A stretch of DNA of 64,000 bases, taken from contig JAAUSR010000002.1 in NCBI GenBank assembly GCA_012032555.1, positions 1 through 64,000 of the forward strand, in the 5' to 3' direction. Positions 40,345-61,835 of the stretch are shown piece by piece. The DNA comes from Thioploca sp. (lineage in GTDB: Bacteria; Pseudomonadota; Gammaproteobacteria; Beggiatoales; Beggiatoaceae). The notes under the pieces were generated by a model. The model saw only the letters and a list, made by a program, of their open reading frames with translations, did no database searches and was not told the origin of the DNA. The position numbers were made by a program, and so were the translations under genes. Each line of letters starts with the position of its first letter. Positions within the stretch are counted from its first letter, which is position 1.

Positions 40345-41130
40345 TTAAATCGGGGTAGCCAAGAGGCTATAAATTTCTCTTACCATCTCCTTTATCACTT
40401 TATCACGTTGAGCTTCCTCAAACTCAGCTAACGGTTTACCATCTTTAGGACGAACTTGTATCACTTTCAACCAATCGATAATATCCCAAAAACAGTCAGT
40501 AACAATAATCGGAAAAACGATCAAATCACCTTGTTGGCGCCGCTGTAAAAAATAAGGAACTTCTTGTTGCATAATGAATTTTGACGCCAAAAAATCATCT
40601 GAAATCAAAAGAATAGCTATCCTCGCTTGTGCTGCTGCTTGTTCAATTTGTTGGGCCCAATCCTCACCGGCTCGAATCTGCCGATCATCCCAAGGGGAAA
40701 TTAATCCTTGATTTTATAGGACTTTAAGAGGTTTTGCTAATAAATTTTTCCAGGTTTCGTCGCGGTGGCTATAACTAATAAAAATATCGTTTTGGCGTGG
40801 TGGTACTGATGACGATAAATTTTTTCCTTTAGTTTTAGTTACTGGTGATGGTTTTGGCTCAGGTACTGGCGACGATTTTGGCTCAGCGGTTGCTAAATTT
40901 GGCCAATTTAATTCTGGACGTAGTTTTTTGCCGATATCAATCAAAGTGGAAATTTGTAAGCGCCGTTCTAAGTGAGACAATAAATCACTGATCAAAGTTT
41001 CTTTACTGCTACCGTCTATTCGATCACTATCAATTCCTAAACGGTTACACAAATCTTTAAGTTCTTTTATGTTGAAATGATCCGTAAGTAGATCAATAAG
41101 TTGATTTCTCTCAAGCAAAGTTAGCGGCAT
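40345..41130 (-). pseudogene. Effector-associated domain (EAD1-like) plus TIR domain protein, interrupted by an in-frame TAA
   Basis: The N-terminus (about 1-78; LLTDHFNIKELKDLCNRLG ... LIDIGKKLRPELNWP) is an EAD1-like death-fold adaptor. A Pro/Lys/Ser-rich linker (about 80-110) follows, then a TIR domain: NDIFISYSHRDETWKNLLAKPLKVL, an in-frame TAA at 40714-40716, then, in the same frame without any indel, NQGLISPWDDRQIRAGEDW, ILLISDDFLASKFIMQQEV and the rest. The Glu after SKF.. is where the catalytic Glu of NAD-cleaving TIRs is expected. The stop could come from CAA by one C-to-T change. The same adaptor starts the SIR2-like gene at 45753-47225. Full length would be 261 codons. It may be a fresh pseudogene, a read-through product, or a sequence error. 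Confidence 0.8.
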
Positions 41131-43189: not shown

Positions 43190-44716
43190 AGTATATCCCC
43201 TAAATGATAGATGTAGGTATAAAAATTAGCTGGTTGTAATGGTTTCGGCGTGATCATTACCTTGGCACTGATAAATTCTAACATTTCTATTATGGTATTG
43301 ATAGCTTTTTCGTTACGCCAGTCGAGCAAAAAAAGGCGATACTTCGACGAACATCAGAGTCTTTTTCTTGGTTAAATAAGGTGATTAATGGGGTGATGGC
43401 TTTGTCGGTTCGTAATTGACCTAACGCCAGCACAGCACTATTGCGGACATTCCAATCGGAATCTTGCAGTCACTCGATTAACTAGCGGAATGGCGGCTGG
43501 CGCTTACAGCGTCCCTAACCCTAGGCCTCCGCGGCGCTACTGCGGACAGTCGAATCGGAATCTTGCAGTAATTTGATTAAGTCGCTAACCATTTCTTGAT
43601 ATCCTAATTGAGCTAGTGCTGAAGTTGCGACATTATAAAGTGTAAAACCCGCGCTTGTTCTAACTTGTCCAAGGTTTTAGTTAAGGCGGCTACATTAACG
43701 CGCAGTAATTTGGCTAAATCACCAACTGGATAAGCCATCTTGGTACCGTGTTTATTGACCAAATAATTAACTGCGGCGGAAGCTAATGGTTTTTCAGTGG
43801 TAGAAAATTGGTCTATTTGCTTGCGAAAGTAATTTTTTAATAATCCTCTTGCCCGACCTTGACTTTCATAAGCCGCTCGGGTGAGTTGATGCTGGGGATT
43901 ATTTTTATCTATTTCCCACAACTGCATACAAACAATTTGTAAATTCGGTGGTTCCACTACTAAATGCGTTTCTACCACCTCTGCCGCTTTACCAAAGCGA
44001 TCCAATTACTCCTGCTGACCTAAATCTTTAACTAAGGTTTCCAATAAACCGTCTTCATACCGAAAACCCAAGCGGGTTACCGGAGTGACAATGGCTGGTT
44101 TGGCATTGTCGATGGTTAAGCGCTCTAACCGATAAAAATTTTCAAATAATAACGTCGGTAATTCGGGTTTAAACGCATTTAATTCCAAAGCAAAATTTTC
44201 CCGCATGGCAATCACAAACACCGTGGCAGTGTGGTGATCTAAAATTGCTTGGGTTAGTTGCTGAATAAACGGGAGAAAATATTGACTATAGCGTTGATAA
44301 TTAAAAAATTCTTCAAATTGGTCGAGAATAATCACCAGCGGCTGATTGGGAATAAACCGGGTAGCAACCCGGAGAAATTCAGGTAAAGTGGTAATTTCAG
44401 CTAAATTCTCACTGGTGCTTACTGGTTGGGTAGCAGTCAGCAATTTAAACAGGGTATTTCGCAGCGTTACCCGCGGATCTTCAACCCAATCGTTGTAATA
44501 CACGACTGTCAAATTTTCTCGATCCGGGCGTTTTAATTCCGGCATCACCGCGGCTTGTAACAAAGAACTTTTGCCCACGCCGCTGGCGGCAAATAGTAAC
44601 GTCAATTTGTTGGTTAAAATTTTGTCAACGAGAATTTGTTTTTCGACCTCGCGACCGAAAAAATTATCTTGATCAGCTTCCTCGTAGGGGCGGAGTCCTT
44701 TGTAGGGTTCTTTCAT
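43186..44716 (-). pseudogene. nSTAND1-type ATPase with HEAT repeats, several nonsense and frame breaks
   Basis: N-terminus: EPYKGLRPYEEADQDNFFGRE (start signature of the nSTAND1 group), Walker A AASGVGKSS (about 43-51), Walker B LVIILDQFEEFF (about 125-136). After DLGQQE there is an in-frame TAA (44006-44008), then the same frame continues with DRFGKAAEVVETHLVVEPPNLQIVC (winged-helix region). Gaining one T at 43637-43639 leads into HEAT repeats (NVATSALAQLGYQEMVSDLIKLL..., NSAVLALGQLRTDKAITPLITLF), with further TAG, TAA and TGA codons, and one T missing in the T7 run 43328-43334. The frame then ends in TGA at 43186-43188, overlapping the amidase start. CAA-to-TAA and TGG-to-TGA changes are evident against the other HEAT copy, so it is decaying. 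Role known for the family: NTP-gated sensor of conflict systems. Confidence 0.78.
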
Positions 44717-45752: not shown

Positions 45753-47225
45753 CTATAAATTGTCAATAAATTCTTGTAAATCAACTGGGTAATTTTTAAC
45801 TCGGGCATTTTCCCAAAATACTTTAGCAAAACTATCTGCGGTCTTATGTACTGTTAAAGCTTGTTCTTCGTGCAGCCGCTTTTTCAAAATCGCTTCCACT
45901 AACAAGCGATTTTCCCAACCGTGGAGATAATGCCCTAATAACCAACAACCGCGCCCGGTCAATTGTCTAACGACATAGTTGGGAATCAGTTTATCGGTGT
46001 AGCGGGCGAAAGCGAAATAATCTCTTTCTGATAACATCAACGAATCTCGTTGATTGATGTTTAAGGGTTTACTCAAAGTAAAACCACCGAGAATTTTATA
46101 AATTAGCGAATAGCCCCGTTCGAGTAACTGTAATCCGGATAAATCTTCAGTCGAACAACATTCGACCTCGGTTTTATTGGAATATTCTAATCGTAACGTC
46201 CCAATTTCTTCTACCACATGGGAAAGTAACACAAATTCCTTACCCTGTTGACGAAAGGTATTTTCTAATAGTTCGTTGATACAACTAGAGATAATGACTA
46301 AAGGAATTGGAACACGGGCTAATAATTGATGCAATAAAATCGGTGTCGTGAAAGGGGTATCGACTAATTCCTGTAATTTAAGCCGCAGAAAATGACGACC
46401 ATATTGGTTATTCATATCCAAATATTCACATAATTCCGGTAAAGAACCTTTGAATTCTGGATAGTTAGCACAATGAGCTAATTGGGGAACCAGTTTTTCA
46501 ACGGTGGGAACACTTTGATCAAAGGCTGCTGGGGCGTCGGTACCCAAAAATATGACAATTTCACCACGTTGTAACCGTCCGGCTAAGGCTTGATAATTAG
46601 GCATTTCCACCGCTGGGGTTGATTGGATATCAATGCCACCGCTCCAGAAATCGATAAATTCTGGCGCGGTCGTTTCACCCGCTAAAAATTCCGCAATCGT
46701 TGCTAAAATAAACTCCGCCGTGTCGTCAAGACTTTCCTTTTCCAATCGTTTTAAATGGGAAGCAACCGACAGATAAATCGATTTAATTTCTAATTTGCGT
46801 TGAAATAATTGTTGTTGCAGGATAATAATACGTTTATTGCGGGTAATTTTTTCCTGAAGACGTTCAATTTCTGGCGCTATCGTTGACGTTTGGGGATCGA
46901 AGGTTTGAATTTTTTGCCATTGAGCAATGGCTTCCTGGTAAGCTTGATTGCGTTCCATGCGTCTGGCAATCTCGATCCATTCGGTTTTAATCCACGGTGG
47001 CATGGGCCAATCAATGTCTGGACGATCTTTGCGCCCGATTGCAATCAAGTCAAGCAGACGTTGATGTCGATCTAAATAGGTTATCAATTCTGTAGCGACT
47101 GCTTTTTTGGCTGAATTGCTTAACTCTTGACCTAATTTAAAAGCCAAAAGTTTTAATTCTTCCAATGAGAAGCGCTTGTCCAGGATATCAACTAAATCAT
47201 TAAGATAAGCTTGCTTGGTGTCCAT
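45753..47225 (-). CDS. Effector-associated domain (EAD1-like) plus SIR2-like domain protein
   Basis: 490 residues, intact. N-terminal EAD1-like adaptor (about 1-74): LVDILDKRFSLEELKLLAFKLG ... LLDLIAIGRKDRPDIDWP, aligned over its length with the start of the EAD-TIR gene. A helical linker (about 80-205) follows. The C-terminal SIR2-like Rossmann domain starts at GEIVIFLGTDAPAAF (about 218-232), with LVIISSCINELLENTFRQQGKEFVLLSH (about 310-337). The usual GAG and TN.D motifs are altered (GTD, SSCIN), so NAD cleavage cannot be assumed. In the known EAD-effector systems the shared adaptor brings effectors to a common platform. First gene of the accessory operon on the minus strand. Confidence 0.8.
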   Translation of the reverse strand: MDTKQAYLNDLVDILDKRFSLEELKLLAFKLGQELSNSAKKAVATELITYLDRHQRLLDLIAIGRKDRPDIDWPMPPWIKTEWIEIARRMERNQAYQEAIAQWQKIQTFDPQTSTIAPEIERLQEKITRNKRIIILQQQLFQRKLEIKSIYLSVASHLKRLEKESLDDTAEFILATIAEFLAGETTAPEFIDFWSGGIDIQSTPAVEMPNYQALAGRLQRGEIVIFLGTDAPAAFDQSVPTVEKLVPQLAHCANYPEFKGSLPELCEYLDMNNQYGRHFLRLKLQELVDTPFTTPILLHQLLARVPIPLVIISSCINELLENTFRQQGKEFVLLSHVVEEIGTLRLEYSNKTEVECCSTEDLSGLQLLERGYSLIYKILGGFTLSKPLNINQRDSLMLSERDYFAFARYTDKLIPNYVVRQLTGRGCWLLGHYLHGWENRLLVEAILKKRLHEEQALTVHKTADSFAKVFWENARVKNYPVDLQEFIDNL

Positions 47226-47402: not shown

Positions 47403-48581
47403 TTATTTATAGTGGATAGCATGTGCAAAAATATAAGTGCACACCGGAACACCTAAAATAAGTCCCCAAAAATAAAACAATTTGCCACCAATGGTGAGAA
47501 TAATCAAAACAATAACCGGGTTGATACGTAAACGGTATCCATAAATTCTTGGATTTAATACGTAACCTTCTAACAAGTGAACCACAACAATTAATCCAAT
47601 TGCCGCTAACATGGCATGTATACCAGAAACCTGTAAGACCACCAAACAAATCGGTATAGAACTAATAAATACGCCCACAACTGGTACAAAACTAAATAAA
47701 AATACAATGACCGAGAGAAAAGCAATGTGTTGTCCCACACCCAAAAAAGATAAACCCAACGCCGTCAATAAAGTATTAACAAGAGCAATTAAAAACTGCG
47801 CTTCAAAAGCTTGGCCTAAGACGAGTCCAAAATCATGAATACTCTCTGCCACTTCTATATAAATAAATTGTAGTTTGGTATTTTCCAAGCTTCGAATACT
47901 AGCACTGAGAACCGGTAAATCTAACACAATGAGAAAAGAGAATAATAAAGCTAATAAAAAAGCCGATACGGTAGAAATAATTTTTTCCCCAATATGTTTG
48001 ACATTACCCAACAGTTGTTCAATCTTTTCATGCGATTTAATATTTTCTTTGCTAAAACCAGCTAATTGCCGAATAAAAAACTTGGTAATTGAGGGCGGTG
48101 AACGACTTTGACCTGATTTTACGGCCTCCACTTCTTCTGGATCGCGTAATTGTTGCATAATCTCTTCAAGCAAAGAGTGGTGAGCACTAAATTCCCAAAT
48201 GCCTTGGTCAATCTTTTGGGTATAAACATTAAACTGAGTAATAAAATTTTGGGTTTGTTGAATTACTCGGGGCGTTAAATAAAGACTTAAGGCGATTAAA
48301 ATACTTAAAAATAAACTACTAAACAAAATAACTCGCCGAGTACGATTTTGGATATGAGGGGCGAGACGCTTCGCGCCATTAGCTTGAATATAAGCAAATA
48401 CAAAAGTGAGAAAAATTAATAAAAAAAATGATCGCAATAAGTAAAGTACCAGAAACAGTAATCCCCATACGAAAGTACGGGTACTCAGAGAAAAAATTCG
48501 ATCCCAGGGGGGCGGTAAAGCGGAATGAGGTTCGTTCGGTAAGGCAACAATAGATTCATTAGAATAAGACTGATTCGACAT
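47403..48581 (-). CDS. AI-2E family transporter (UPF0118-type)
   Basis: 392 residues with about eight membrane segments: a pair near the N-terminus (about 36-65), a long central hydrophilic stretch, and a C-terminal set with the family block LGLSFLGVGQHIAFLSVIVFLFSFVPVVGVFISSIPICLVVL and LEGYVLNPRIYGYRLRINPVIVLI. The family includes putative AI-2 exporters and Na+/H+ or small-molecule permeases; no substrate is implied here. Gap to the ankyrin gene upstream is 90 bp, so it may be the last member of the exported-protein operon. Confidence 0.85.
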   Translation of the reverse strand: MSNQSYSNESIVALPNEPHSALPPPWDRIFSLSTRTFVWGLLFLVLYLLRSFFLLIFLTFVFAYIQANGAKRLAPHIQNRTRRVILFSSLFLSILIALSLYLTPRVIQQTQNFITQFNVYTQKIDQGIWEFSAHHSLLEEIMQQLRDPEEVEAVKSGQSRSPPSITKFFIRQLAGFSKENIKSHEKIEQLLGNVKHIGEKIISTVSAFLLALLFSFLIVLDLPVLSASIRSLENTKLQFIYIEVAESIHDFGLVLGQAFEAQFLIALVNTLLTALGLSFLGVGQHIAFLSVIVFLFSFVPVVGVFISSIPICLVVLQVSGIHAMLAAIGLIVVVHLLEGYVLNPRIYGYRLRINPVIVLIILTIGGKLFYFWGLILGVPVCTYIFAHAIHYK

Positions 48582-48671
48582 AAGATATTATTTTGACAAA
48601 TTATACTCAAGCATTTCATGGCTAATTATTGTTGATATTTATAGTTCAGTAATAAGTTACCATTGGTTGAA

Positions 48672-50102
48672 TTAATGGGATGATGACCACCATTCTTCAA
48701 TGGTAAAACCCTGAGTTCTTAATTTATCGGCGACTTTTTGTACAATAAACAACTCTTCCATCCGAATTTGGCCTTTAGCCAAGTTTTGAAATAGACTATA
48801 AACTCGAAAAAATTGATCTCTTACGGCTGGATCTGCTTCAAATAAAATATTTTGGTGATCGGTTTTGGCTAAGGTTTTTACAGCGTGTTGAAGAATTTCC
48901 GGTGAATAGGCACTAAATAGCGAGGACATATTTTCAGCTAGAAAAATTTGTTGTTCAGCCCGTGCTAAATACGGACTAAGAACATCAAAAGAAATATAAT
49001 CATAGCGACTTTGTGTTATTTCATCCACCATACTTTGATATTGGCGCCATTGTTTCTCAGTTTGAGGCAGGTCCTGTGAGGTAACCTCCCGAATTTTATC
49101 TTGTAAAACCGTTCCCAATTTAATTAAAGATAATTTAAGTTGTTCATATCCTTCAAGAACTTGGTCCACTTCGGTGAAAGATAAAGTTGCAATCGGATTA
49201 TTGATTTCATGTTGAATTTGCCACTGACGATTAGACAAAAAATTGCGTGAGGGTGGCAAAGAACCGACTGAAGCGAGTTGACTTAAAGTCCGTTTTTGGT
49301 TCTGGATCTTCAATTCATCAAACAAACGTTTATCGACTTCCAACCAGCGATCCAATAAGGTCATATCTCCCGTGACTTGATAACCGTCTTGAATAATTTC
49401 TCGTGCTAGTCTTATCTGGTTTTGGTTTAATAAGTAATCTGCCTTAGCCAGATATTCTTTCACTGGTGAGGTGGTTTCCGGAGTGGACGTGACTGTCTTA
49501 GTCGTAGTCGTTGCTGATGGGGTTGGTTGCACCACATTCCAATCACTAAACAACAGCTTTTGAAAAATGTCAGTATAACCGCGAGCTTGTGCTATTTCCA
49601 TGGGAGTAATCCCTTCATAATGCCGAATATTCACATCCGCATGATACTGTAACAACAGTTCAACGGCTGTCATATCGTTATTTTCTACGGCATACATTAT
49701 GGCGGTATAGCCAGTGCGCTTATTTTGTAAATTGACATTGGCACCTTGTTCTAATAATAATTGCACCATGTCATGGTATTGATTATGTGTTGCGGCCATG
49801 AGAGCCGTCATGCCTGCCGCATTTTCTACATCCGGATTGGCTTTGGCTTCCAGCAATAATTGAGCAATAGGTAACTGTCGATGAGAAACCGCCACTAACA
49901 ATGCTGGATTGCCTTGTTCATCAGCGATATCGGGTGAGTTAGCTGTTGCTAAATAGCGTGAAACTTCGGTAACTTGACCTTCAATAATCAATTGAATCAG
50001 TGATTTGGTTTCTTCAACAACTTCATCTTCAGCAACTACAGTGGTGATAAAGGGCAGTATAACAAGCCATACGCCCAAAGTAATATAAACTGATATTTTC
50101 AT
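48672..50102 (-). CDS. Exported ankyrin-repeat protein
   Basis: 476 residues with a signal peptide (cleavage near TTVVAED). Five ankyrin repeats (about 33-190) are clear from ..GNPALLVAVSHRQLPIAQLLLEAKANPDV, ..GMTALMAATHNQYHDMVQLLLEQGANVNL, ..GYTAIMYAVENNDMTAVELLLQYHADVNI and ..GITPMEIAQARGYTDIFQKLL. A Thr/Pro-rich linker (about 196-218) leads to a helical C-terminal half with no recognised domain. It is probably periplasmic and, by position, part of the set with the TPR-CHAT protease and the coiled-coil lipoprotein. Specific partner unknown. Confidence 0.78.
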   Translation of the reverse strand: MKISVYITLGVWLVILPFITTVVAEDEVVEETKSLIQLIIEGQVTEVSRYLATANSPDIADEQGNPALLVAVSHRQLPIAQLLLEAKANPDVENAAGMTALMAATHNQYHDMVQLLLEQGANVNLQNKRTGYTAIMYAVENNDMTAVELLLQYHADVNIRHYEGITPMEIAQARGYTDIFQKLLFSDWNVVQPTPSATTTTKTVTSTPETTSPVKEYLAKADYLLNQNQIRLAREIIQDGYQVTGDMTLLDRWLEVDKRLFDELKIQNQKRTLSQLASVGSLPPSRNFLSNRQWQIQHEINNPIATLSFTEVDQVLEGYEQLKLSLIKLGTVLQDKIREVTSQDLPQTEKQWRQYQSMVDEITQSRYDYISFDVLSPYLARAEQQIFLAENMSSLFSAYSPEILQHAVKTLAKTDHQNILFEADPAVRDQFFRVYSLFQNLAKGQIRMEELFIVQKVADKLRTQGFTIEEWWSSSH

Positions 50103-50148
50103 TATGAATCACTCCGGTTATAACTTAGTTTTTCGCATTTAAGTGACT

Positions 50149-50670
50149 TTATTGTAAACCTTGAAAGTCATGCCATAGTTGTTGAACATCCTGATTTAAT
50201 TGCATTAACTGTTGCTGGTGCGTTGCTATGTCATCACGATTAATCAGTGAATCACGCTGTAGTTGTTCAATATGAAGATTAATTTGTTTAAGTTGTTCAG
50301 TCATTAAGGATTTTTTCTCAGTAGCTAAGGGGTTATTTGTTTTAAAATGGGCTAATTGATCGGCAAGTTGTTGGGTTTCCTGAATAATACGGAATAATTC
50401 TTTATCTAATTCATTAAGCTGTAATTGTTTTTGGTCTACATCTACCGCTAAGCGACGTTGTTCTTGTTGAGCTTCGCGTTGCAAGTGTCGTATTTCTTCT
50501 AAACGACCCTCTTGTTCTTCAATATGATTATTATAAATGCCGGCACCAATACTATAAGATCTATTTCTTGTTCCACTGGGTTGAGTTTCATATCCCGTAG
50601 TACAACCACTGATAATACCAATAACTAACACCACCACGCCGGTTAATTCGTTGATTTTATTTTTCTGCAT
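50149..50670 (-). CDS. Coiled-coil lipoprotein
   Basis: 173 residues. The N-terminus ends in a lipobox (ISGC, Cys23), so the protein should be lipid-anchored in the envelope. Residues about 50-173 form a long Gln/Glu/Leu-rich coiled coil (EEQEGRLEEIRHLQREAQQEQRRL...). No family is recognised. It lies 46 bp upstream of the ankyrin gene and 89 bp downstream of the CHAT locus on the same strand. A tether or scaffold role in the envelope is inferred from the anchor plus coil. Confidence 0.7.
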   Translation of the reverse strand: MQKNKINELTGVVVLVIGIISGCTTGYETQPSGTRNRSYSIGAGIYNNHIEEQEGRLEEIRHLQREAQQEQRRLAVDVDQKQLQLNELDKELFRIIQETQQLADQLAHFKTNNPLATEKKSLMTEQLKQINLHIEQLQRDSLINRDDIATHQQQLMQLNQDVQQLWHDFQGLQ

Positions 50671-50759
50671 GGCACTGGCTCCTTCAATAAAATTGCTTTA
50701 ACTTGACGATGAATTACAATTTGACTAATCGATCTCGTGAAGAGATCGGATTCATTAAG

Positions 50760-53209
50760 TTATAACCAATTGCCGATTAATAAAAAAGCTGACCAATAAT
50801 AGGGATGTCGATAACGGACATAGCTTTTATCAGTTAGCATCCTTATTTGAGCCTGTTGTAAAGCTTTCGCTTTGGATAAGCTTAAATTTTGCAATTGACT
50901 ATAAAATTCAATAATAACGGCGGGGGTTGCCTCATCATCAACTTGCCATAAACTAGCGACAGCACTGTTAACGCCGGCTCTTAAAGCCACACCAGCTAAA
51001 CCTAAAGCGGCTCGATCATTACCAACGGCTGTCTCACAAGCGCTCAACGTGAGCAAGTCAACCGGTTTACCTTGAATCGAGGTGAGATTCATTAATTCCT
51101 CCAATTTAGCCATCGTTAATTTGTCATCATAAGTTAAAATGAAGGTATTGTCTAAATTAGCGCTAAATTGACCATGAGAAGCGACATGTACAGTAGAGTA
51201 GGTTGTCTGATTGAGAGAACGTTGCAAAGCGGGAAAGGTAAATTTTTCGTTGAGTAAAGGTTGAGGGGCGGTTTTAAATAAGGCTTGGATGGTGGTTAGT
51301 TCATATTCAGCACAAGGTAAAGCCGAAAATCCTTGGACGGATTGAGATAAGCCGCCTAGTAGAATGGTTTGTGACCCAGAGCGATGGGATTGCGATTGGC
51401 TTAAGCATAAACTAGGTACACTAGCCAGGGCATATTTCTGAATTAGAAATTGTTGGCCATCATGTAAAGCCGCAAAAGGGATGGTATACAAAGCGCCTTC
51501 CGGTACAATAACCAGCGTGTCAATGTTATCTAAATAAGCGGTGAGTGGTTCAATTAACCAACGATATAAATTCTGGGCTGGTTTTAAAAAGGTTTGAGTA
51601 GTAGCGGTGAGGTTTTGGGCAATAGACCCGCGTGTTGAAGGCTTACAAATCGCTATTCCCGTTTCCTGAGAATTACTATTTCTGGTTCGTTCATCTGGAT
51701 TAGGATGTTGACGAAGTGGTGATAAAAAAGCCGCTATTTCATCACGTAAATAGATTCTTTAATGGGAATGGTTATTTGGACCACGTTATGGGATAAATTA
51801 AGTAATAATTCCAACCGATCTGGCAAAGGAATGGGATATAAAATAGCGGTATGTGGATCGAGTAATTGTTCTACATCAGTACAACTCGTGGAAATATTAG
51901 CACAATCCCATTGAAAATAATCTTGTAATTCAGCTTGTTTAAACAATTCTATCGTATTTTTGGCTTGTTGTAATAATGACTGACGTTGATCGGCAGAATG
52001 AGTTAAATGACTCTCTTGTAATAATAAATCAGCTAATTCAAAATAGATCGGTGCGACTCGTTCCCGAAAACTTTCTTCCAGATTAATATAACCCATGGTG
52101 GCAACCGGTAACCGGATGGGCGTTAAGTTAGTGACTGCTTGTTGATAGGCTTTGATAGCACCAAGTCGATCACCTTGTGCTTTGAGTAGTCTCCCTAATT
52201 GCCACTGCCAATAATACAATAGCGATTTAGTTTGGGTTTGTTGAGCAAAAAAAATAGCTTGACGAGTAAAAGCTAAAGCTTCCTTATCATGATGAGTTTG
52301 TTCATCGCGTTTGCCCAAATAACCGTAGACATAAGCTTTAGCCGTCGGGTTTTCGCTCTGTTGAGCGAGGGTTTGTGCTAATTTTAAAGCCTGATCCATC
52401 AGTTGGTTTAAGTGAATAATGGGTTTGGCTAATTGAGCTTGAATTTGTTGCGCTAATTGGCTTAAAGCCAACAGTCCCAAGATCTGGCTGTAAATATCAT
52501 CCCATTGTTGAGTTGCTTGCCAAGCCGTTGTTAATGCAGCCATACTTTCCGGAAAAGCGAGTTGTGAGTCGGTATATTGGAAAGCATTTTCAGATTCAAG
52601 CAGAAAAGTAGTTCGTGCTTGATTAATAAGAATTTTTCCATATAGAGTGGCTATTGCTGACGGCGAAACCAGCGGCTGTAGAGCTGGTTGGTAAACTTGA
52701 AGGTGGTTTAAAGCTTCACGATAATGCTCTAGAGCTGATTCATAGTCACCCTGAACCGCGAGCATATTACTCCAATGGTTTAAAACACCGGCTAATACCC
52801 AAGGATGATGAGTATTTCGCGTGAGCTGCAAAGCAGTTGTCACTAATGAAATCGCTTTCTGAGGCTGGGTTGGTTTTTGGGAGAAATATAACTTACTTTG
52901 TTCATTCAGCAAGAGCACATAGTAAATCGTATCAGTAGATTTAGCTAAAGGTAAGGCTTGGTTAAGTATTTTGATAGCTTCCTCATAAGCCCCCAAGCGT
53001 CGGTAAGCTTGTACTAAACTTAACTCGACTTGGAGGCGTTGCTGGGTAGTTGGGGAATGAGTTAAAGCCATTTGCCACTGTGTTATTGCTTGCTCATAAT
53101 AACCTTGTTGAAAAGCTTGTGTCGCTCGTTCTAAAGGCTGCGCAACGGTGCTATTCCAAATAAGCGTTAATAAATTAATTAAAAGTAAGCACCAGAGATC
53201 ACGGATCAT
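50760..53209 (-). CDS. Exported TPR-CHAT protease-like protein, frameshifted
   Basis: First frame (51734-53209, 491 aa): signal peptide (cleavage after TVAQ), then TPR repeats (FQQGYYEQAITQWQMAL, AYRRLGAYEEAIKILNQAL, QGDYESALEHYREAL, AQGDRLGAIKAYQQAV). At 51748-51750 one T is missing (-1 break); the next frame continues with RDEIAAFLSPLRQ, then LVIVPEGALYTIPFAALHDG and a CHAT protease core with HVASHGQF (His) and LSACETAVGN (Cys), ending in the typical HPYYWSAFLLIGNW. CHAT is a caspase/separase-fold peptidase. The intact protein would be about 815 aa. It is unusual in being exported. Upstream is another secreted protein, 56 bp away. Confidence 0.82.
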
Positions 53210-53265
53210 AATCGCAATTTGGATAACCTTTAATTGGCTTTAGACTCAACCAATTACTAAAATAA

Positions 53266-53811
53266 TCAAGCGGTTTGTTTTTCTAAAAGCATTTCTGCTT
53301 GCCAATCACAACCCTGCTGTTTCATCCACTGGATTTGTCCAGCTATCGTTTGATTCTTAAGTGGAATTTGATGCACAATAATTTCGTTATATTCAGAAGC
53401 ATCACCGAGCTTGATTAGATAAGTATGGCCTGGCTGAATAGGTAGACGGTTATTTGGCCAAGCGAGAGTGGTTTCATGAGCAAGCCACCGTAATTTAATT
53501 TCTCGTTGAGTTTGCTTCTCTTTAATGATAAGTCGATCTAACTGTCCACTCCGGTTATCTTCTGGTAACCACAAAACAATTTCTTCTGGGGTAAGGTAAC
53601 AAAAATCACGATAGTGATGAATGTTAATAGCCCATATCTTGGGTGGAGTATTTTCTAAACCTCTTCGACGTGATTCAAACTTTTCAGCTAGCCAGAGTGG
53701 CTGTGGATTTTTAACCGTTACCGGTGTAACTTGTTCTAGCTCATTAGCAAAACTTTTACCCAGATAACAACAATAAAGCATCAATAAAAAAATAAAACGT
53801 AATGATAACAT
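53266..53811 (-). CDS. Secreted hypothetical protein, 181 aa
   Basis: Signal peptide (about 1-22, cleavage near KSFAN). The mature part looks like a small beta-rich domain (IVLWLPEDNRSGQLDRLIIKEK, LRWLAHETTLAWPNNRLPIQPGHTYLIKLGD) with two Cys in the second half. It is the first gene of the operon with the exported TPR-CHAT protein, so it may act as its partner or substrate. A similar small secreted protein preceding a TPR-CHAT gene is a layout I recall from cyanobacteria and sulfur bacteria, but no named family is recognised. Confidence 0.6.
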   Translation of the reverse strand: MLSLRFIFLLMLYCCYLGKSFANELEQVTPVTVKNPQPLWLAEKFESRRRGLENTPPKIWAINIHHYRDFCYLTPEEIVLWLPEDNRSGQLDRLIIKEKQTQREIKLRWLAHETTLAWPNNRLPIQPGHTYLIKLGDASEYNEIIVHQIPLKNQTIAGQIQWMKQQGCDWQAEMLLEKQTA

Positions 53812-54194
53812 GGTATTACTCCCTAAAAGTAGGCCAGATTAGGTAGTGCTTAAGCGGTAGTCATTTTACTCGGGTAACCAAGAATTAAAACGACTCTCCT
53901 GGTTGTTAGGTTGCTAATCTGACTGCCGGTTTAATACTACTCTCAATTAAATAACATCATTCAAGATGGCTGTGAAATAATTCAATTTATCATGTTGTCG
54001 TAGTTTATACCAAGACTCGTTATACTGAAAATTGAATAAAACTTTTCCATATCTATTTTAAATTTAGCATTCAATACATTGAAATGGGTATTAAGTTGTC
54101 AATTGGTAGGAGAATAAGTCATGATGAGAAACTAAGTAGGAGTAATAATAACAATTTTATTAGCATTAACACTATTTTATTGGTAGTACTTAAA

Positions 54195-57100
54195 ATGAAT
54201 GCCTATCATCTGATTGGGGTATTATGGTTTTATTTGTGGCCATTATGGGTTGTTGCTTACCCTCCAACGCTTAAATTTGAGCATCTTTCTCTGGAAGAGG
54301 GGCTGTCTCAAAGTACTATTTATGCTATACTACAAGATAGTAAAGGATTTATGTGGTTTGGTACCCAAGATGGACTTAATCGATATGATGGTTACCAATT
54401 CACAATTTATCGTCATAATCCAATTGATCCTAACAGTTTAAGTCATAATGAGATCTTCACCCTTTATGAAGATCGGCAAAACAATCTTTGGATTGGGACC
54501 GGGGGTGGACTTAATCGCTTTGATCGTCAACAAGATCGATTTATTCACTACTCTCATGATCCACATAATCCGAATAGCCTAAGTCATAATACGGTTTGGT
54601 CAATTTATGAAGATCACCAAGGTCGGCTATGGATTGGTACTAATGGTGGTGGTCTTGATCAATTTGATATTCAACATAATCGTTTCATTCATTATCGGCA
54701 CAATCCTCAAGATCCTCATAGTTTAAGTCATGACCGGGTTTGGCCCATTTACCAAGATAAAAAAGGTACTTTATGGGTGGGTACTGATGGGGGTGGTCTG
54801 AACCGATTTGATCCCCAAACTAATCAGTTTATGTACTATTTACTGGATATGCAAAATCCAGATTGTTTAAATAATTATGTGACGAGTATTTACGAAGATC
54901 AAAGTGGTATGTTATGGATTGGCACGGTTGGTGGATTACACCAATTTGATCGGGATCATGAACAATTTATTCCTTATTACCATGATCCGCAACAACCCAA
55001 TAGTTTAAGTCATGATGCAGTATGGGCTATTCGTGAGGATGAACAAGGTAATTTATGGATAGCTACCGACGGTGGTGGATTAAACTGGTGGGATCGCCAA
55101 CAAAAAAAATTTTTTCATTATCAGAATGATCCACAAAATTTAGCGAGTTTAAGTAGTGATGCGGTATTATCAATTTATCAAGATCAGGCGGGTACTTGGT
55201 GGGTTGGTACCGGGGGGGGAGGAATCAATTTTTTTAATAACGAGCGTCAAAAATTTATCCACTACTTCCATGATCCCAATAACGCTAATCAGTTAAACAA
55301 TAATCATGTGTTATCACTCTATGAAGATCGCCAGAAAATACTTTGGGTTGGGACACGGGGTGGCGGACTAAACCGGTTCAATCAACAACGAGATAAAGTG
55401 ACTTATTATCTTCATGATCCCAACAATCTAAATAGTTTAAGCCATAATGATGTGTGGTCTATTCTTGAAGATAGTTATGGTATGCTTTGGATTGGAACTT
55501 ATGGGGGGGGATTAAACCAATTTAATCGTGAGCAAAATCAGTTTGTTGCTTACGTTCACGATCACCAAAATCCTCAAAGTTTAGTTAATAACTATGTTTT
55601 ATCGCTTTATGAAGATAGTACAAAAATACTTTGGATTGGTACCCGCGAAGGGTTAGACCAACTAGACCGCGAGCACCACCAATTCATCCATTATCACCAT
55701 GATTCCAAAAACAATACCAGTTTAACTCATAATACCATTTTATCTATTTACGAAGACCGCACTCAAACTCTCTGGGTTGGTACTCAACAAGGTTTAAACC
55801 GTTTTGACCGCCAACACCAACACTTTAGCCATTACCAATTTAATCCGCAAGATCCAACGAGTTTAAGTCACAACCAAATTTCGGCGATTCATGAAGATAA
55901 CTATGGTAATCTATGGGTAGGTACCTTTGGTGGTGGTCTCAATCAGTTAAATCGGATCACTGGGACTTTTAATCACTATCGAGAAGCGGATGGATTAGCT
56001 AATGATGTCATTTATGGCATCTTATCAGATGCTAAGGGATATCTTTGGATTAGTACCAATAAAGGTCTTTCTAAATTCGATCCGGCTACGAAACGATTCA
56101 GAAATTATGATACGTTAGATGGATTACAAAGCCTTGAATTCAATAGTGCTTATTTTAAAAATAGCCGTGGTGAACTATTTTTTGGCGGTATTAATGGTTT
56201 TAATGTCTTTAATCCTCAACAAGTTAACGATAATTCTTATATCCCACCGGTCGTGATCACCGATTTTGAAATTTTTAATCAACCCATGACTATCGGTGAA
56301 AATTCTCCTTTAACCCAATCCATTACCGAAACTAAAAAAATCACGCTAACTTATAAACAAACTTTTTTCACTTTTGAATTTGCTGCTTTAAATTTCTTAC
56401 AACCATCCAAGAATGAATATGTTTATAAGTTAGAAGGTTTTGATCAGGATTGGAATTCGGTTGGTAATCGCCGTCATGCTTATTACACCAACGTACCTCA
56501 CGGCACTTATACTTTCCGAGTCAAAGGGAGTAACAATGACAAAATCTGGAATAAAACTGGAACTTTTATTGAACTGACCATTTTGCCTCCCCCCTGGAAA
56601 ACTTGGTGGGCTTATAGTTTATATATCTTAACTACCTTAATGGTTATCACCAGATATATTTATATTCAACAACAAAAATTATTTGCCAAACAACAAGAAC
56701 TCGATCTAGAAAAGAAAATCGCTACTCAATTAAAGGAAGCTAATCGACTTAAAGACGAATTCTTAGCGAATACCTCGCATGAATTGCGCACACCGCTCAA
56801 TGGAATTATTGGGATTGCGGAATCTTTGCTAGATGGAGTGGCTGGACCACTCAATCAAGCCGTCAGTAACAATTTGGTGATGATTGTCTCCAGTGCTCGA
56901 CGTCTCATGACTTTAGTTAATGATATTCTAGATTTCTCTCAAATTAAACGACGCAAACTGCAATTGCAAATTGGTCCGGTGGATATTCGAACCATTACAG
57001 AAGTCATATTAGCTTTAACTCGCCCCCTCATTGGTCATAAACCGGTGCAATTACTTCAGCAAATTCCTATGGATTTGCCACTGATTCAAGCCGATGAAAA

Positions 57101-58694
57101 TCGAGTTCAACAAATTCTTTATAACTTAGTAGGCAATGCTATTAAGTTCACTGAGAGCGGAACAATAACCATAGCCGCTCAATACCCAGAAACCTCAAAT
57201 CATCTCACCATTACGGTTACGGATACTGGAATTGGTATTCCAGCAGATAAATTAGAGCGAATTTTCGATGCGTTTGAACAAGCTGATGGTTCAATTATCC
57301 GAATTTATGGCGGTACCGGTTTAGGTTTAACGATTACTCGTCACTTAGTTAAGTTGCAAGGTGGGCAATTATCCGTGCAATCTCAAGTAGGCGTTGGCTC
57401 GCAATTTACTTTTACCCTTCCAATTTTACCACTAGAATCAATCGAAACGCCTTTACCGATTTCCCCTTTACCACTTCGAAGCGAATCCACTTTATCTTTG
57501 GTTCTCGTTCCAGAATTACCGCAATCTGATCGGACTCAAGGAAACTATCACATTCTGATAGTGGATGATGATCCCGTTAATCGACAAGTTCTGATTAACC
57601 ACCTATCCTTACATAATTACGCGGTTAGTCAGGCGACTTCTGGACAAGAAGCACTGACTTTAATCGTGAATGGTTTAAAACCGGATTTAATTTTACTCGA
57701 TGTGATGATGCCCCACTTAAGTGGTTATGAAGTGACCCAAAAAATTCGCGAACAATGGCAAGCGAATGAATTACCGGTACTGCTACTAACCGCTAAAAAT
57801 CAAATTGTTGATTTAGTGACTGGCTTGGAAGCCGGTGCTAACGACTATTTAACCAAACCGGTGGCTAAAGAAGAATTATTGGCTCGTATTAAAACTCATC
57901 TGCATCTGCAGCAGCTACGAGCAGAAAATTTACGTATGCATACTGAATTAGAAGTAGCTAGACGTATCCAGCAAATGTTGTTACCCACTCATCCGGAACT
58001 ACAATGCTTAACGAGCTTGGATATTACCGGTTACATGTTACCGGCAGAAGAAGTGGGTGGTGATTATTACGATGTTCTTGAACATCAAGGACATATTCTT
58101 TTTGGTATCGGTGATGTTACCGGACATGGGTTAGAAAGTGGTGTATTAATGCTCATGGTACAAACGGCTATTCGTACTTTGCTAGAACATGGAGAGAAAG
58201 ATTTAACTCAATTCCTCAATACACTCAATCGCACCCTCTACAAAAATATCCAGCAACGCATGAAAGTGGATAAAAATCTCACCTTATCATTACTCAAATA
58301 CTTTCCATTATCGGCTACTACCGGTCAGATCTATCTGAGTGGACAACATGAAGAAGTCATTATTATTAGAAACAATGGTCAATTAGAACGTCTTAGCACT
58401 GAACCGTTAGGATTTATAATTGGGTTTATGGAAGACATTTCAGCATGGTTGAGCCAAACCCCCATTTTATTAAATTCTGGTGATATGATTGTACTTTATA
58501 CCGACGGTATTACTGAAGCGGTCAATTTAGCTGGTGAATATTATGGACTGGAGCGACTCTGTGAAATCATGCTTCGTCATCAACAACAAACCGTTGCAGA
58601 AATTCGCCAAGCGGTAATCAACGATGTCCATCAACACATTGGTCGACAAAAACTGTTTGATGATATTACGTTATTAATAATAAAACAAAAATAA
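54195..58694 (+). CDS. Two-component propeller hybrid kinase with receiver and SpoIIE-type phosphatase
   Basis: About 1499 residues from ATG 54195 (MNAYHLIGVLWF, signal-like start; an upstream ATG at 54084 adds an unlikely leader). In order: 13 beta-propeller repeats of the YEDxxGxLWIGTxGGGLNRFD type, a Y_Y_Y domain (YVYKLEGFDQDWN), a membrane helix (about 797-818), a coiled coil, HisKA with [11 protein letters not shown] (His862), HATPase (GGTGLGLTI), a receiver (Asp1169) and a PP2C-type SpoIIE phosphatase with EVGGDYYDV, GIGDVTGHGLESG, LYTDGITEA and DDITLLI. All catalytic residues are in place. The periplasmic propeller should sense a ligand; the phosphatase output fits partner switching with the STAS protein encoded 24 bp downstream. 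Confidence 0.93.
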   Translation: MNAYHLIGVLWFYLWPLWVVAYPPTLKFEHLSLEEGLSQSTIYAILQDSKGFMWFGTQDGLNRYDGYQFTIYRHNPIDPNSLSHNEIFTLYEDRQNNLWIGTGGGLNRFDRQQDRFIHYSHDPHNPNSLSHNTVWSIYEDHQGRLWIGTNGGGLDQFDIQHNRFIHYRHNPQDPHSLSHDRVWPIYQDKKGTLWVGTDGGGLNRFDPQTNQFMYYLLDMQNPDCLNNYVTSIYEDQSGMLWIGTVGGLHQFDRDHEQFIPYYHDPQQPNSLSHDAVWAIREDEQGNLWIATDGGGLNWWDRQQKKFFHYQNDPQNLASLSSDAVLSIYQDQAGTWWVGTGGGGINFFNNERQKFIHYFHDPNNANQLNNNHVLSLYEDRQKILWVGTRGGGLNRFNQQRDKVTYYLHDPNNLNSLSHNDVWSILEDSYGMLWIGTYGGGLNQFNREQNQFVAYVHDHQNPQSLVNNYVLSLYEDSTKILWIGTREGLDQLDREHHQFIHYHHDSKNNTSLTHNTILSIYEDRTQTLWVGTQQGLNRFDRQHQHFSHYQFNPQDPTSLSHNQISAIHEDNYGNLWVGTFGGGLNQLNRITGTFNHYREADGLANDVIYGILSDAKGYLWISTNKGLSKFDPATKRFRNYDTLDGLQSLEFNSAYFKNSRGELFFGGINGFNVFNPQQVNDNSYIPPVVITDFEIFNQPMTIGENSPLTQSITETKKITLTYKQTFFTFEFAALNFLQPSKNEYVYKLEGFDQDWNSVGNRRHAYYTNVPHGTYTFRVKGSNNDKIWNKTGTFIELTILPPPWKTWWAYSLYILTTLMVITRYIYIQQQKLFAKQQELDLEKKIATQLKEANRLKDEFLANTSHELRTPLNGIIGIAESLLDGVAGPLNQAVSNNLVMIVSSARRLMTLVNDILDFSQIKRRKLQLQIGPVDIRTITEVILALTRPLIGHKPVQLLQQIPMDLPLIQADENRVQQILYNLVGNAIKFTESGTITIAAQYPETSNHLTITVTDTGIGIPADKLERIFDAFEQADGSIIRIYGGTGLGLTITRHLVKLQGGQLSVQSQVGVGSQFTFTLPILPLESIETPLPISPLPLRSESTLSLVLVPELPQSDRTQGNYHILIVDDDPVNRQVLINHLSLHNYAVSQATSGQEALTLIVNGLKPDLILLDVMMPHLSGYEVTQKIREQWQANELPVLLLTAKNQIVDLVTGLEAGANDYLTKPVAKEELLARIKTHLHLQQLRAENLRMHTELEVARRIQQMLLPTHPELQCLTSLDITGYMLPAEEVGGDYYDVLEHQGHILFGIGDVTGHGLESGVLMLMVQTAIRTLLEHGEKDLTQFLNTLNRTLYKNIQQRMKVDKNLTLSLLKYFPLSATTGQIYLSGQHEEVIIIRNNGQLERLSTEPLGFIIGFMEDISAWLSQTPILLNSGDMIVLYTDGITEAVNLAGEYYGLERLCEIMLRHQQQTVAEIRQAVINDVHQHIGRQKLFDDITLLIIKQK

Positions 58695-58718: not shown

Positions 58719-59060
58719 ATGAACATTAAAGATGACAATTATAGTATTGATTATGATGCCGCCACCGCAACGGTTTACCTACGTGGAGTATTACGTCTTA
58801 ATCCGGAAGAATATGTGCCAATAGTGCAATTATTAGAACAGGTTATTACGCTAGAACCAACCTTACTGACAATCAATTTACGCGAACTGGAATTTCTCAA
58901 TAGTTCAGGATTTACCAACCTAGCTCGCTTTATAACCAAAGTGAACACTAAAAAAACTATCCAATTACAAATGCAAGCTTCTTCACAAAATCCTTGGCAT
59001 CAAAAATCATTGAATAATTTTAAGCGGCTCATGCCTCAATTACGATTGGAATTTGTTTAA
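58719..59060 (+). CDS. STAS-like anti-sigma-factor-antagonist-type protein
   Basis: 113 residues with a STAS-like fold pattern: ATVYLRGVLRL, a central LTINLRELEFLNSSGFTNLARF, where the SSG Ser pair is at the place phosphorylated in SpoIIAA-type proteins, and a C-terminal strand-helix. Its start has TTAGGAATCACT upstream, and it follows the SpoIIE-type phosphatase by 24 bp. By established partner-switching logic the phosphatase would dephosphorylate this protein, which would then release or bind a partner. The cognate kinase (an HPK/anti-sigma of the RsbW type) is not in the window. Resembles the slr1659-type regulators. Confidence 0.85.
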   Translation: MNIKDDNYSIDYDAATATVYLRGVLRLNPEEYVPIVQLLEQVITLEPTLLTINLRELEFLNSSGFTNLARFITKVNTKKTIQLQMQASSQNPWHQKSLNNFKRLMPQLRLEFV

Positions 59061-60295: not shown

Positions 60296-60889
60296 CCAGC
60301 GTCATTGAGCGTAATTTCTCCACCCAATAAGGAAAATGATTGTTTTTCTGACACGGACAAGTGACTGCCATCTACCGTCAACGTCCCCGGGGAGTCAGTT
60401 AAAAATCCAAACGCCACTACCGGGGCAATGCTCAACACACTTTCTTCGGGTTGACGAGCATTGAAAGTGCCCCCATCTTCAAAACGTAACACGTCGGCGG
60501 AACTGGCATGAAATGACCCCAAAATGTCTAAAGTGGCTTGGGGACCAAAGGAGATTCCCGCCGGGTTAATTAGGTAAACATCCGCATTCGGAATGGTGGA
60601 ACGTAATAGTCCGTTGAGGTGAGCGGTTTGCCCACCCGTGACTCGACTAATGATATTGTTAATTGATGCTGGTCCAGAAAAAGTAGCGCTTTCTCCGGCA
60701 ATAAGGTTAAAATCCTTGAAGCTATGGAATAAGTTATTACCACGTTGTTGGCCTAATTCGGCTCCAATTTGATAATGGGGGACAGGTAGCGTGAGCCGAG
60801 GGCCCTAAGGTACCATCGAGGGTGATTTGTGCTGGCAGCGGCAAATTAAAGCCGCATAATGACAAGAATAGTAATTTCTTTAGCATCAT
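60270..60889 (-). pseudogene. Filamentous hemagglutinin N-terminal (TPS) domain fragment, truncated
   Basis: Start ATG 60889 (MMLKKLLFLSL, a signal peptide ending near LPAQ), then ITLDGTLGP. One surplus C at about 60803-60806 shifts the frame, after which the other frame reads LTLPVPHYQIGAELGQQRGNNLFHSFKDFNL, GPASINNIISRVTGG, LINPAGISFGPQA, FHASSADVLRFEDGGTFNA, then VVAFGFLTDSPGTLTVDGSHLSVSEKQSFSLLGGEITL. This is the secretion/hemagglutination domain of two-partner-secreted adhesins. It stops where the transposase remnant begins. The full adhesin would be thousands of residues, so the gene is dead here. Confidence 0.78.
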
Positions 60890-60905
60890 ATTGATTATTC
60901 TAATT

Positions 60906-61835
60906 TTATTTCCATTCAAAGCTTTGCACAACCAGCACGCCCTGTTCACGAGCTTGTTCTAACATCGCCGGGTTGGCAAAATGAGTCACGATTAAAGGAA
61001 AAACCGGCTGATGAAATTGGGTTGCAACCACTTGGACATTTTTTCCGAGTTGTCCTATTTTAGCGCGATCATCCAATCTCAACACGGTTTCACCAACTAC
61101 CAAGAGTGGTTCAGTATGACAGGTCGCCTTAGCAAACAGATTAATTTCTTCGCCACCAATCACGGTACGAATAAATTGTTCGGTGATTTCTATTTGATAA
61201 TGGTCTTTTAAATAGATTGGTAGTTGGCGATAGGCTTCATTTTCTAACGCATAAGACATACTTCTAGCTAAGCCACCAACCTGAGTTCTGGTGCCTTTTG
61301 CAGAGCGGGAGAGTTCTGCAATTTCTTGTTCAGTTTGTTTCTGTACTTGAATTAGATCTTCTAAGGAACAAGAGAGTTTAGTCACTTGTTGTTTAGTTTG
61401 TTGCTGCGCTTGAGTGAGTTCTCCTAGGGAACGAGAGAGTTTGGTCACTTCTTGTTCAGTTTGTTGCTGCGCTTGAGTGAGTTCCCCTATTGCTTTCATT
61501 ACGCCTTTCTGAGCTTGTGCTAATTCTTCTTGGGTTTGTGCTAAGCTTGCTAAGCGTTGGTCAATACGAGCTTGTGCCTCGGTCCAGCGTTGGTCTGTGC
61601 GATTTTGTGCTTCGACCAAATTTATCAAACGTTGCTCGGTACGGTACTGTGCTTGGGCTAAGGCTTTAGTTGTTTGACCGAGTTCTTTGACAATTCCTTT
61701 TAATTCATTGAATTCCGTTTTCGTCACCGAGATTTCCCGGTGTTGTTCAATTTCGTCCAGAATCGTCCACCAAATTGCTTTCCAGGGTGGTTCGAGGACA
61801 TCGAGTCGGCGCATTAGATTGACGCTAAAGGACAT
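60906..61835 (-). CDS. Coiled-coil protein with C-terminal nuclease-like domain
   Basis: 309 residues, intact. The N-terminal 30 residues (MRRLDVLEPPWKAIWWTILDEIE) are followed by a long coiled coil (about 35-185) with internal 21-residue repeats, GELTQAQQQTEQEVTKLSRSL repeated three times with changes. The C-terminal 110 residues (INLFAKAT, PLLVVGETVLRLDD, VFPLIVTHFANPAMLEQAREQGVLVVQSFEW) resemble the PD-(D/E)XK-like end of DUF3782-type proteins found in many copies in sulfur bacteria and cyanobacteria, though the catalytic residues are not clear. Function unknown. Confidence 0.65.
   Translation of the reverse strand: MSFSVNLMRRLDVLEPPWKAIWWTILDEIEQHREISVTKTEFNELKGIVKELGQTTKALAQAQYRTEQRLINLVEAQNRTDQRWTEAQARIDQRLASLAQTQEELAQAQKGVMKAIGELTQAQQQTEQEVTKLSRSLGELTQAQQQTKQQVTKLSCSLEDLIQVQKQTEQEIAELSRSAKGTRTQVGGLARSMSYALENEAYRQLPIYLKDHYQIEITEQFIRTVIGGEEINLFAKATCHTEPLLVVGETVLRLDDRAKIGQLGKNVQVVATQFHQPVFPLIVTHFANPAMLEQAREQGVLVVQSFEWK

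Follow-up and report, generated by a model that had tools for sequence, protein, structure and literature searches.

The CHAT protein Csx29 belongs to Craspase (type III-E CRISPR), an RNA-guided, cytoplasmic system. DdvA of Myxococcus is a transmembrane anti-sigma factor whose CHAT domain is built into the membrane receptor, and it reportedly controls a CBASS-CRISPR island. HetF of Anabaena carries CHAT at its N-terminus (residues 1–555). Here, we describe a locus from Thioploca sp. in which a protein with tetratricopeptide repeats (TPR) and a C-terminal CHAT domain (TPR-CHAT) has a signal peptide and is encoded beside a small exported protein and a divergent receptor kinase. The stretch analyzed, hereafter the window, comprises 64,000 nucleotides (positions 1 to 64,000 of contig JAAUSR010000002.1, forward strand) of a draft genome of 5.55 Mb in 198 contigs. 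The labels S181 (the small exported protein) and REGP (the Reg_prop/histidine-kinase/SpoIIE receptor) were coined in this analysis. We interpret the locus as an envelope signaling module of Beggiatoaceae-type bacteria made up of exported TPR-CHAT, S181, and the REGP receptor kinase, a reading to which we give an even chance.

Parts of this arrangement have been reported. The passages of MacGregor 2016 (PMC5108060) on this neighborhood describe a REC-domain sensor kinase of T. ingrica, a hypothetical protein upstream of it, and a TPR-CHAT gene adjoining that, as well as homologues in Maribeggiatoa and two Beggiatoaceae REC kinases that end in SpoIIE. Those passages treat the neighborhood as a case of rearrangement and gene exchange, and the parts appear there without export, protein family, or module. 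In the open-licence PMC literature, we found no study of exported CHAT protein function or of such a module, and nothing joining CHAT with a signal peptide in Beggiatoa or CHAT with Reg_prop. One genome of the same genus used throughout for comparison, G001 (a single contig of 4.81 Mb), is probably T. ingrica, judging from the THII_3682 SpoIIE kinase in the corresponding passages of PMC5108060.

The features of the proposed module are listed below by position in the window. Counts refer to 111 compared CHAT sequences, 23 of which form the clade of the window protein.

53266–53811, minus strand: S181, 181 amino acids, a signal peptide followed by the mature protein, whose only two cysteines are residues 71 and 168
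51734–53209, minus strand: TPR-CHAT, first part, 491 amino acids, with signal peptide, TPR array, and start of the pre-CHAT region (86.7% identity to the intact G001 ortholog)
51735–51761, minus strand: interval of a reading-frame break, just ahead of the linker insert (the G001 copy is intact)
50760–51758, minus strand: TPR-CHAT, second part, in a different frame, 332 amino acids, the CHAT caspase-like core (PF12770, E = 1.5e-66; 88.8% identity to G001)
51579–51713, minus strand: class-specific linker insert, 45 amino acids in the window
51645–51647, minus strand: insert cysteine (G001 residue 534), in 23/23 clade members and the sole invariant position of linker columns 512–556
51312–51314, minus strand: second cysteine of the pair, within the CHAT core (G001 residue 645), in the same 23/111 sequences only
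51174–51176, minus strand: predicted catalytic histidine (G001 H691), in 111/111
51036–51038, minus strand: predicted catalytic cysteine (G001 C737), in 110/111, the exception (L093) being a shortened open reading frame (ORF)
54084–58694, plus strand: REGP, divergent receptor, 1536 amino acids, with Reg_prop (13 stretches), Y_Y_Y, HisKA, HATPase, receiver, and SpoIIE phosphatase

The recurring unit is S181, an exported CHAT, and the receptor kinase, in shifting pairs. The S181 family consists of clade B, with at most one copy per genome and no linkage, and the remaining non-B genes (57 rows in the tree, 22 of them in clade B, six genes fewer than in the census below). Our census of 63 genes comprised 64 family matches minus the clade-B copy of G001, which has the same last 60 residues as that of G000; a match outside the family (G055, E 0.003) was not counted. 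Clade A or B was assigned by best BLAST match to tree-placed rows, and the window CHAT was counted by its TPR half. Across the 38 non-B S181 genes, found in 18 genomes, CHAT lay within 1.5 kb of 15, REGP of 14, either of 24, and both of 5, and the linked genes were spread over 14 genomes. None of the 25 clade-B genes had such a link. Chance estimates for the linkage of S181 to CHAT and to REGP were 4e-12 and 8e-18, respectively, with shared ancestry ignored. They use a chance per S181 gene of ~2.1% for CHAT and ~0.7% for REGP, calculated from 14 genomes (71.6 Mb) with 251 CHAT and 58 REGP matches, some genes being counted piecewise.

Seen from the protease, S181 or REGP was within 4.5 kb of 15/23 clade CHATs compared with 1/88 other CHATs (Fisher 5e-12). 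CHAT and REGP also occurred together without S181 nearby at three loci (L168, L169, and L177). Co-occurrence across the 36 family genomes showed the same pairing: non-B S181 was present in 15/15 genomes with the CHAT clade, scored at E<1e-99, and in 3/21 without it (p 1.5e-7). CHAT matches as such numbered 8–44 per genome in the 14 family genomes chosen for the search.

The proteases of the window clade have their own signature. With a PF12770 score of 225 bits (cut-off 24) and a His-Cys dyad found in the window protein and 110/111 relatives, the window CHAT is assigned to the CHAT peptidases, and proteolysis is predicted. A linker insert and a cysteine pair together set 23 of the 111 CHATs apart. 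The linker is 40–64 residues long in these 23 and 10–15 in 85/88 others (exceptions 6, 25, and 62). Cysteines 534 and 645 (G001 numbering) were both present in 23 sequences and both absent from 88, and neither occurred alone. Mean top-residue share was 0.38 in the clade linker versus 0.67 in the core, and the linker cysteine was kept in sequences down to 30% identity. In a quick tree, the 23 insert-carrying CHATs grouped together with one non-member (L134, from G013) inside, at 99% SH-aLRT support. The simplest reading is a C534–C645 disulfide, by which the linker is probably pinned to the CHAT core.

Export appears to be a family trait, predicted for most of the TPR-CHAT homologues examined. 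Relatives came from a genome scan (at least 454 confirmed, best 80 loci kept) and include Desulfonema, Nitrospira, Scalindua, Cyanobacteria, Beggiatoaceae-type, and other genomes; near-identical rows were removed by their last 70–80 residues in the export, neighborhood, dyad, and cysteine-pair comparisons. A strict home-made rule recognized signal-peptide-like N-termini in 65/101 CHAT ORFs compared with 166/624 other ORFs and 77/2020 shuffles, although the G001 ortholog itself failed it. A relaxed rule recognized 92/103 CHAT ORFs (window TPR half included), 277/603 other ORFs, and 128/515 shuffles. The other ORFs in these controls include truly exported and membrane proteins. An earlier note on this DNA had proposed checking signal peptides across homologues, and most do carry them, in Beggiatoaceae-type genomes, Nitrospira, Desulfobacterota, and Cyanobacteria. 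Cleavage of the window protein, placed by that note after TVAQ, is likelier after TVA (by eye). Its view that CHAT proteases are mostly cytoplasmic is too simple, given that 61 of the 88 other TPR-CHATs have genes for two-partner secretion (TPS), ShlB, DUF928, or CHASE2 nearby, and that DdvA is a transmembrane protein with a CHAT domain. Exported CHAT proteins are widespread, and their export alone is not new.

S181 differs from its neighbors in how fast it changes. Its ratio of nonsynonymous to synonymous substitution rates (dN/dS) between the window and G001 was 0.46, compared with 0.10–0.16 for neighboring genes, and it was less conserved than CHAT in 5/5 genome pairs compared. Clade-B copies were more conserved (90.9% and 76.6% in two genome pairs). 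The two cysteines were kept in 62/63 family members, with a shift of three alignment columns allowed, as expected in an oxidizing compartment. Among 57 genomes searched, S181 was present in 33/36 of the family and, weakly, in 1/21 outside it; among the best 80 of at least 454 CHAT-relative loci, it was found on three Beggiatoaceae/Thiotrichales contigs only. It had no relatives in Pfam, NCBIfam, PADLOC, or PDB, with no solved structure matching at E up to 10. Membership in DUF928 was rejected (hhalign probability 0.7%; no Pfam match for the window protein or the homologues scanned). Clade-B genes lie near AAA/STAND-like ATPase genes in three genomes (L105 7903–11949, L104 4248–5267, and L100 7121–8302), mostly below Pfam cut-offs. 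Four S181 homologues (L146, L153, L158, and L231) have an extra N-terminal beta domain, FecR-like by eye, for which Pfam gave nothing over cut-off in L146 and L231.

REGP passes the Pfam cut-offs for Reg_prop, Y_Y_Y, HisKA, HATPase, receiver, and SpoIIE, which makes it a Reg_prop two-component hybrid. Receptors resembling REGP are present, too, in family genomes that lack the CHAT clade (for example, G002, G008, G012, G022, and G035), and the receptor is thus the broader component.

The other genes around this core are the following.

58719–59060, plus strand: slr1659-superfamily (STAS-like) regulator, 113 amino acids, among the loci searched found here and in G001 only
50149–50670, minus strand: lipobox coiled-coil protein, 173 amino acids, lipobox ISG|C read by eye, a genus-level passenger
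48672–50102, minus strand: exported ankyrin protein, 476 amino acids, VVA|E site read by eye, a genus-level passenger
47403–48581, minus strand: AI-2E-type permease, the last gene of the run, in the same place in G001

The slr1659-type protein is a possible target of SpoIIE. Gaps along the minus-strand run are 46–90 nucleotides, which fits a single operon, and G001 has the same order of S181, CHAT, lipobox, ankyrin, and permease genes with the divergent kinase. A promoter scan was at chance level (24 found versus 24.6 expected), and terminators numbered 7 versus 5.0. The earlier note had read four exported neighbors on one strand as a CHAT-protease operon. Minus-strand ORFs for the 181-residue, TPR, lipobox coiled-coil, and ankyrin proteins are present, each with an export-type N-terminus, but TPR-CHAT is frame-broken and not one ORF. 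That note's account of 47403–53811 omitted the permease, and it missed both the frame break and the divergent kinase at 54084–58694. The conserved neighborhood it asked for holds for the S181-CHAT part, whereas lipobox and ankyrin genes were found with CHAT in the same genus only. Among 57 genomes, close relatives of the lipobox and ankyrin proteins were found only in G001 (86% and 87%, respectively); the 14 kb locus (L103) of a 43% ankyrin-protein relative in G018 contains no CHAT. Since these partners were not found near CHAT beyond the genus, the idea that the whole family shares the four-gene operon was rejected, and the repeat-rich partners form no family-wide module. Nearby, the minus strand also holds an EAD7 fragment (40717–41130), an nSTAND1 NTPase fragment (44009–44716), and an EAD7-SIR2-like gene (45756–47225), possibly pieces of a conflict-system island.

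Structural modeling compared the protease with described systems. An AlphaFold2 (AF2) model of the intact relative L176, built from 41 rows, had a predicted local distance difference test (pLDDT) score of 90.5 and a predicted template modeling score (pTM) of 0.89; the linker was the least certain part (pLDDT ~53–67). In VIA-align, the best match was Craspase TPR-CHAT (7y84; Z 29.6, 570 residues, root-mean-square deviation 5.4), and the separase protease domain (5fby) reached Z 24.2 over 334 residues (deviation 4.1). The modeled fold thus resembles Csx29 and separase. Csx29 is the closest solved fold and has the dyad in common, as well as, with S181 as the candidate here, a nearby substrate gene (PMC9729208), but identity is only 12%. 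Membership was rejected at 19.9 bits against a cut-off of 300 (NCBIfam NF041237), and no gRAMP/Cas7-11 gene is adjacent, the neighboring ORFs scanned belonging to other families. In Foldseek, DdvA, whose solved chain is named CHAT domain-containing protein and has His and Cys motifs, ranked 9th and 12th (E 8e-12 and 2e-11; TM 0.27–0.29), with the match spanning TPR and CHAT. By sequence, the CHAT profile did not match DdvA significantly (E 0.63), and a phmmer search of PDB with the CHAT half returned chance matches only. Membrane signaling, proposed here, is common to both systems, but CHAT here is a separate exported protein, unlike the CHAT fused into the DdvA membrane receptor. A DdvA-type anti-sigma factor was rejected: Pfam found TPR-type and CHAT domains only, with no anti-sigma domain, and the first helix resembles a cleavable-type signal peptide.

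The TPS-linked TPR-CHATs of Nitrospira, Desulfobacterota, Cyanobacteria, and Beggiatoaceae share the C-terminal CHAT, the dyad, and mostly the signal peptide, and they too are accompanied by a small exported partner and by a membrane sensor. The small partner there is DUF928 instead of S181, and the sensor is a CHASE2 cyclase instead of the Reg_prop, histidine kinase, and SpoIIE protein. These CHATs lack the cysteine pair and mostly have the short linker. Within 4 kb of 74 CHAT ORFs, from the best 80 of at least 454 loci, we found ShlB at 37, DUF928 at 35, TPS at 30, CHASE2 at 21, and none of the families sought at 17, with Pfam names taken from representatives. Among the families sought, the G001 ortholog had S181 and REGP alone in its surroundings, with no TPS or ShlB gene within 4.5 kb; Pfam matches of the window neighbors scanned likewise included no TPS or ShlB. 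In three ORFs elsewhere, CHAT and a TPS exoprotein domain are fused (L208 97–4902, L230 610–6888, and L244 5782–11235). An exported CHAT with a downstream TPS-like gene (L170) lies just past the window end, and a short ORF at 60737–60949 (minus strand) resembles, by eye, the beginning of a TPS exoprotein and is probably a remnant.

The TPR-CHAT gene of the window is split over two frames, while its G001 ortholog is one ORF of 828–840 amino acids, in which the break maps to residue 499/500. There is no ATG, GTG, or TTG ahead of 51491, which leaves the CHAT half without a usual start codon. A programmed frame shift was rejected, as no slippery heptamer is present at the break (by eye) and the second half lacks a start codon. 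Against G001, dN/dS was 0.152 upstream and 0.155 downstream of the break, indicating the same purifying selection without relaxation. A hybrid histidine kinase at 36608–39264 (plus strand) is also broken, between HisKA and HATPase, where the G001 frame is open for 877 amino acids. Three more CHAT genes of the same genome, on contigs C11, C166, and C170, seem to be split in two frames, making four split CHAT loci with that of the window. Equal selection on both halves and the second broken gene in the window make an assembly error plausible, and we lean to this explanation, the alternative being recent loss.

Several observations weigh against a joint envelope module. The protease gene of the window is, as assembled, not intact. 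Neither CHAT nor REGP lies within 1.5 kb of 14 of the 38 non-B S181 genes (some at contig ends), and CHAT is missing beside S181 in 9 of the 14 REGP-linked places. Eight of the 23 clade CHATs have no S181 or REGP within 4.5 kb; three of these are within 0.7 kb of a contig end and the rest are not. Seven of the eight come from genomes in our G-numbered set, each with an S181-REGP pair elsewhere. Because contig ends truncate several loci, counts of unlinked genes are upper bounds. Carriers of the cysteine pair form one clade, and the pair could be a single inherited event. One S181 of 63 lacks the second cysteine, and the S181 model, from four rows, is poor (AF2, pLDDT 57). TPR-only proteins match the TPR part of the CHAT model at Z 21–26, up to 25.7, which makes the fold match partly generic.

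Other explanations account for some of these data. The protease could process exoproteins, as would most of the other TPR-CHATs compared, maturing or releasing two-partner-secreted or other surface proteins, with S181 as a helper and REGP regulating expression only. The 61 other TPR-CHATs near TPS, ShlB, DUF928, or CHASE2 and the three TPS fusions are consistent with this, as are paralogues in the same genome (L170, L172, L173, and L175) with TPS-like genes within 1 kb downstream. We nevertheless consider it rather unlikely, as a search up to 4.5 kb from the G001 ortholog detected neither TPS nor ShlB and TPS is nearby in only 4/23 clade members, all four of which have S181 too. A defense or death switch, in which CHAT in the periplasm detects an attack on the envelope and its pathway starts a defense programme, as reported for DdvA, would fit the DdvA structures at Foldseek ranks 9 and 12, the EAD7 and nSTAND1 genes 3.5–10 kb from CHAT, and the fast change of S181, which could reflect an arms race. 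The ankyrin protein also matches the PADLOC candidate PDC-M72A (3e-26), via its ankyrin part. Yet PADLOC gave no match for S181 or the STAS-like protein, gave weak ones for CHAT and REGP (REGP E 4e-5 at best), and named no complete system; S181, the STAS-like protein, and REGP were accordingly rejected as PADLOC defense proteins. DdvA is moreover one fused membrane protein, while the genes here are separate, and we regard such a switch as unlikely.

Two further explanations concern the protease itself. It may be a recent pseudogene in the window species, its neighbors having no joint function with it. The break without a slippery site (by eye) and the four seemingly split CHAT loci point this way, but selection is equal on both sides of the break, the kinase that is likewise broken here and open in G001 suggests assembly errors, and the other genomes would be left unexplained; we regard decay as quite unlikely. 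TPR-CHAT could instead be a scaffold that binds partners and cleaves nothing, as a cysteine protease in an oxidizing compartment would risk thiol loss. With the dyad in 110/111 sequences and a conserved CHAT core, this seems very improbable.

If the locus is an envelope signaling module, TPR-CHAT, as a separase/caspase-like cysteine protease, would be exported and would probably work in the periplasm. From the signal peptides and, for the kinase, a topology suggested by domain order, CHAT, S181, and the Reg_prop part would share one compartment outside the inner membrane. S181, the protease, or both could act with REGP, whose Reg_prop sensor would lie outside, while kinase, receiver, and SpoIIE phosphatase inside would carry the signal inward. 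The linker insert, if pinned by a disulfide to the CHAT core, may gate the active site. The two kept cysteines and fast change of S181 fit a recognized or cleaved partner. Since it changes fast, and since the Craspase paper (PMC9729208) states that genes for CHAT substrates commonly lie close to that of the protease, we propose S181 as the best candidate substrate or inhibitor of CHAT. REGP may then read the outcome, with the SpoIIE domain as output, and in the Thioploca genus the signal would probably reach the slr1659-type STAS-like partner as the SpoIIE target. Of the claims made earlier, the one favored is an envelope-level role, given the linked receptor kinase and its large N-terminal sensor part.

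A more specific and speculative version, which we think improbable as a whole, is a redox-gated extracytoplasmic separase-like enzyme. The disulfide-pinned linker would lie over the active site, envelope stress would open it, S181 would be cut, and the beta-propeller kinase would read the result and switch SpoIIE and STAS. Thiols and sulfide, candidate envelope stresses, are abundant where these bacteria live. If true, it would amount to an outside-in version, in bacteria, of the separase-securin logic. For Beggiatoaceae-type bacteria, the locus offers a handle on extracytoplasmic CHAT function: a protease class with its own signature, a candidate partner, and a receptor, largely co-inherited.

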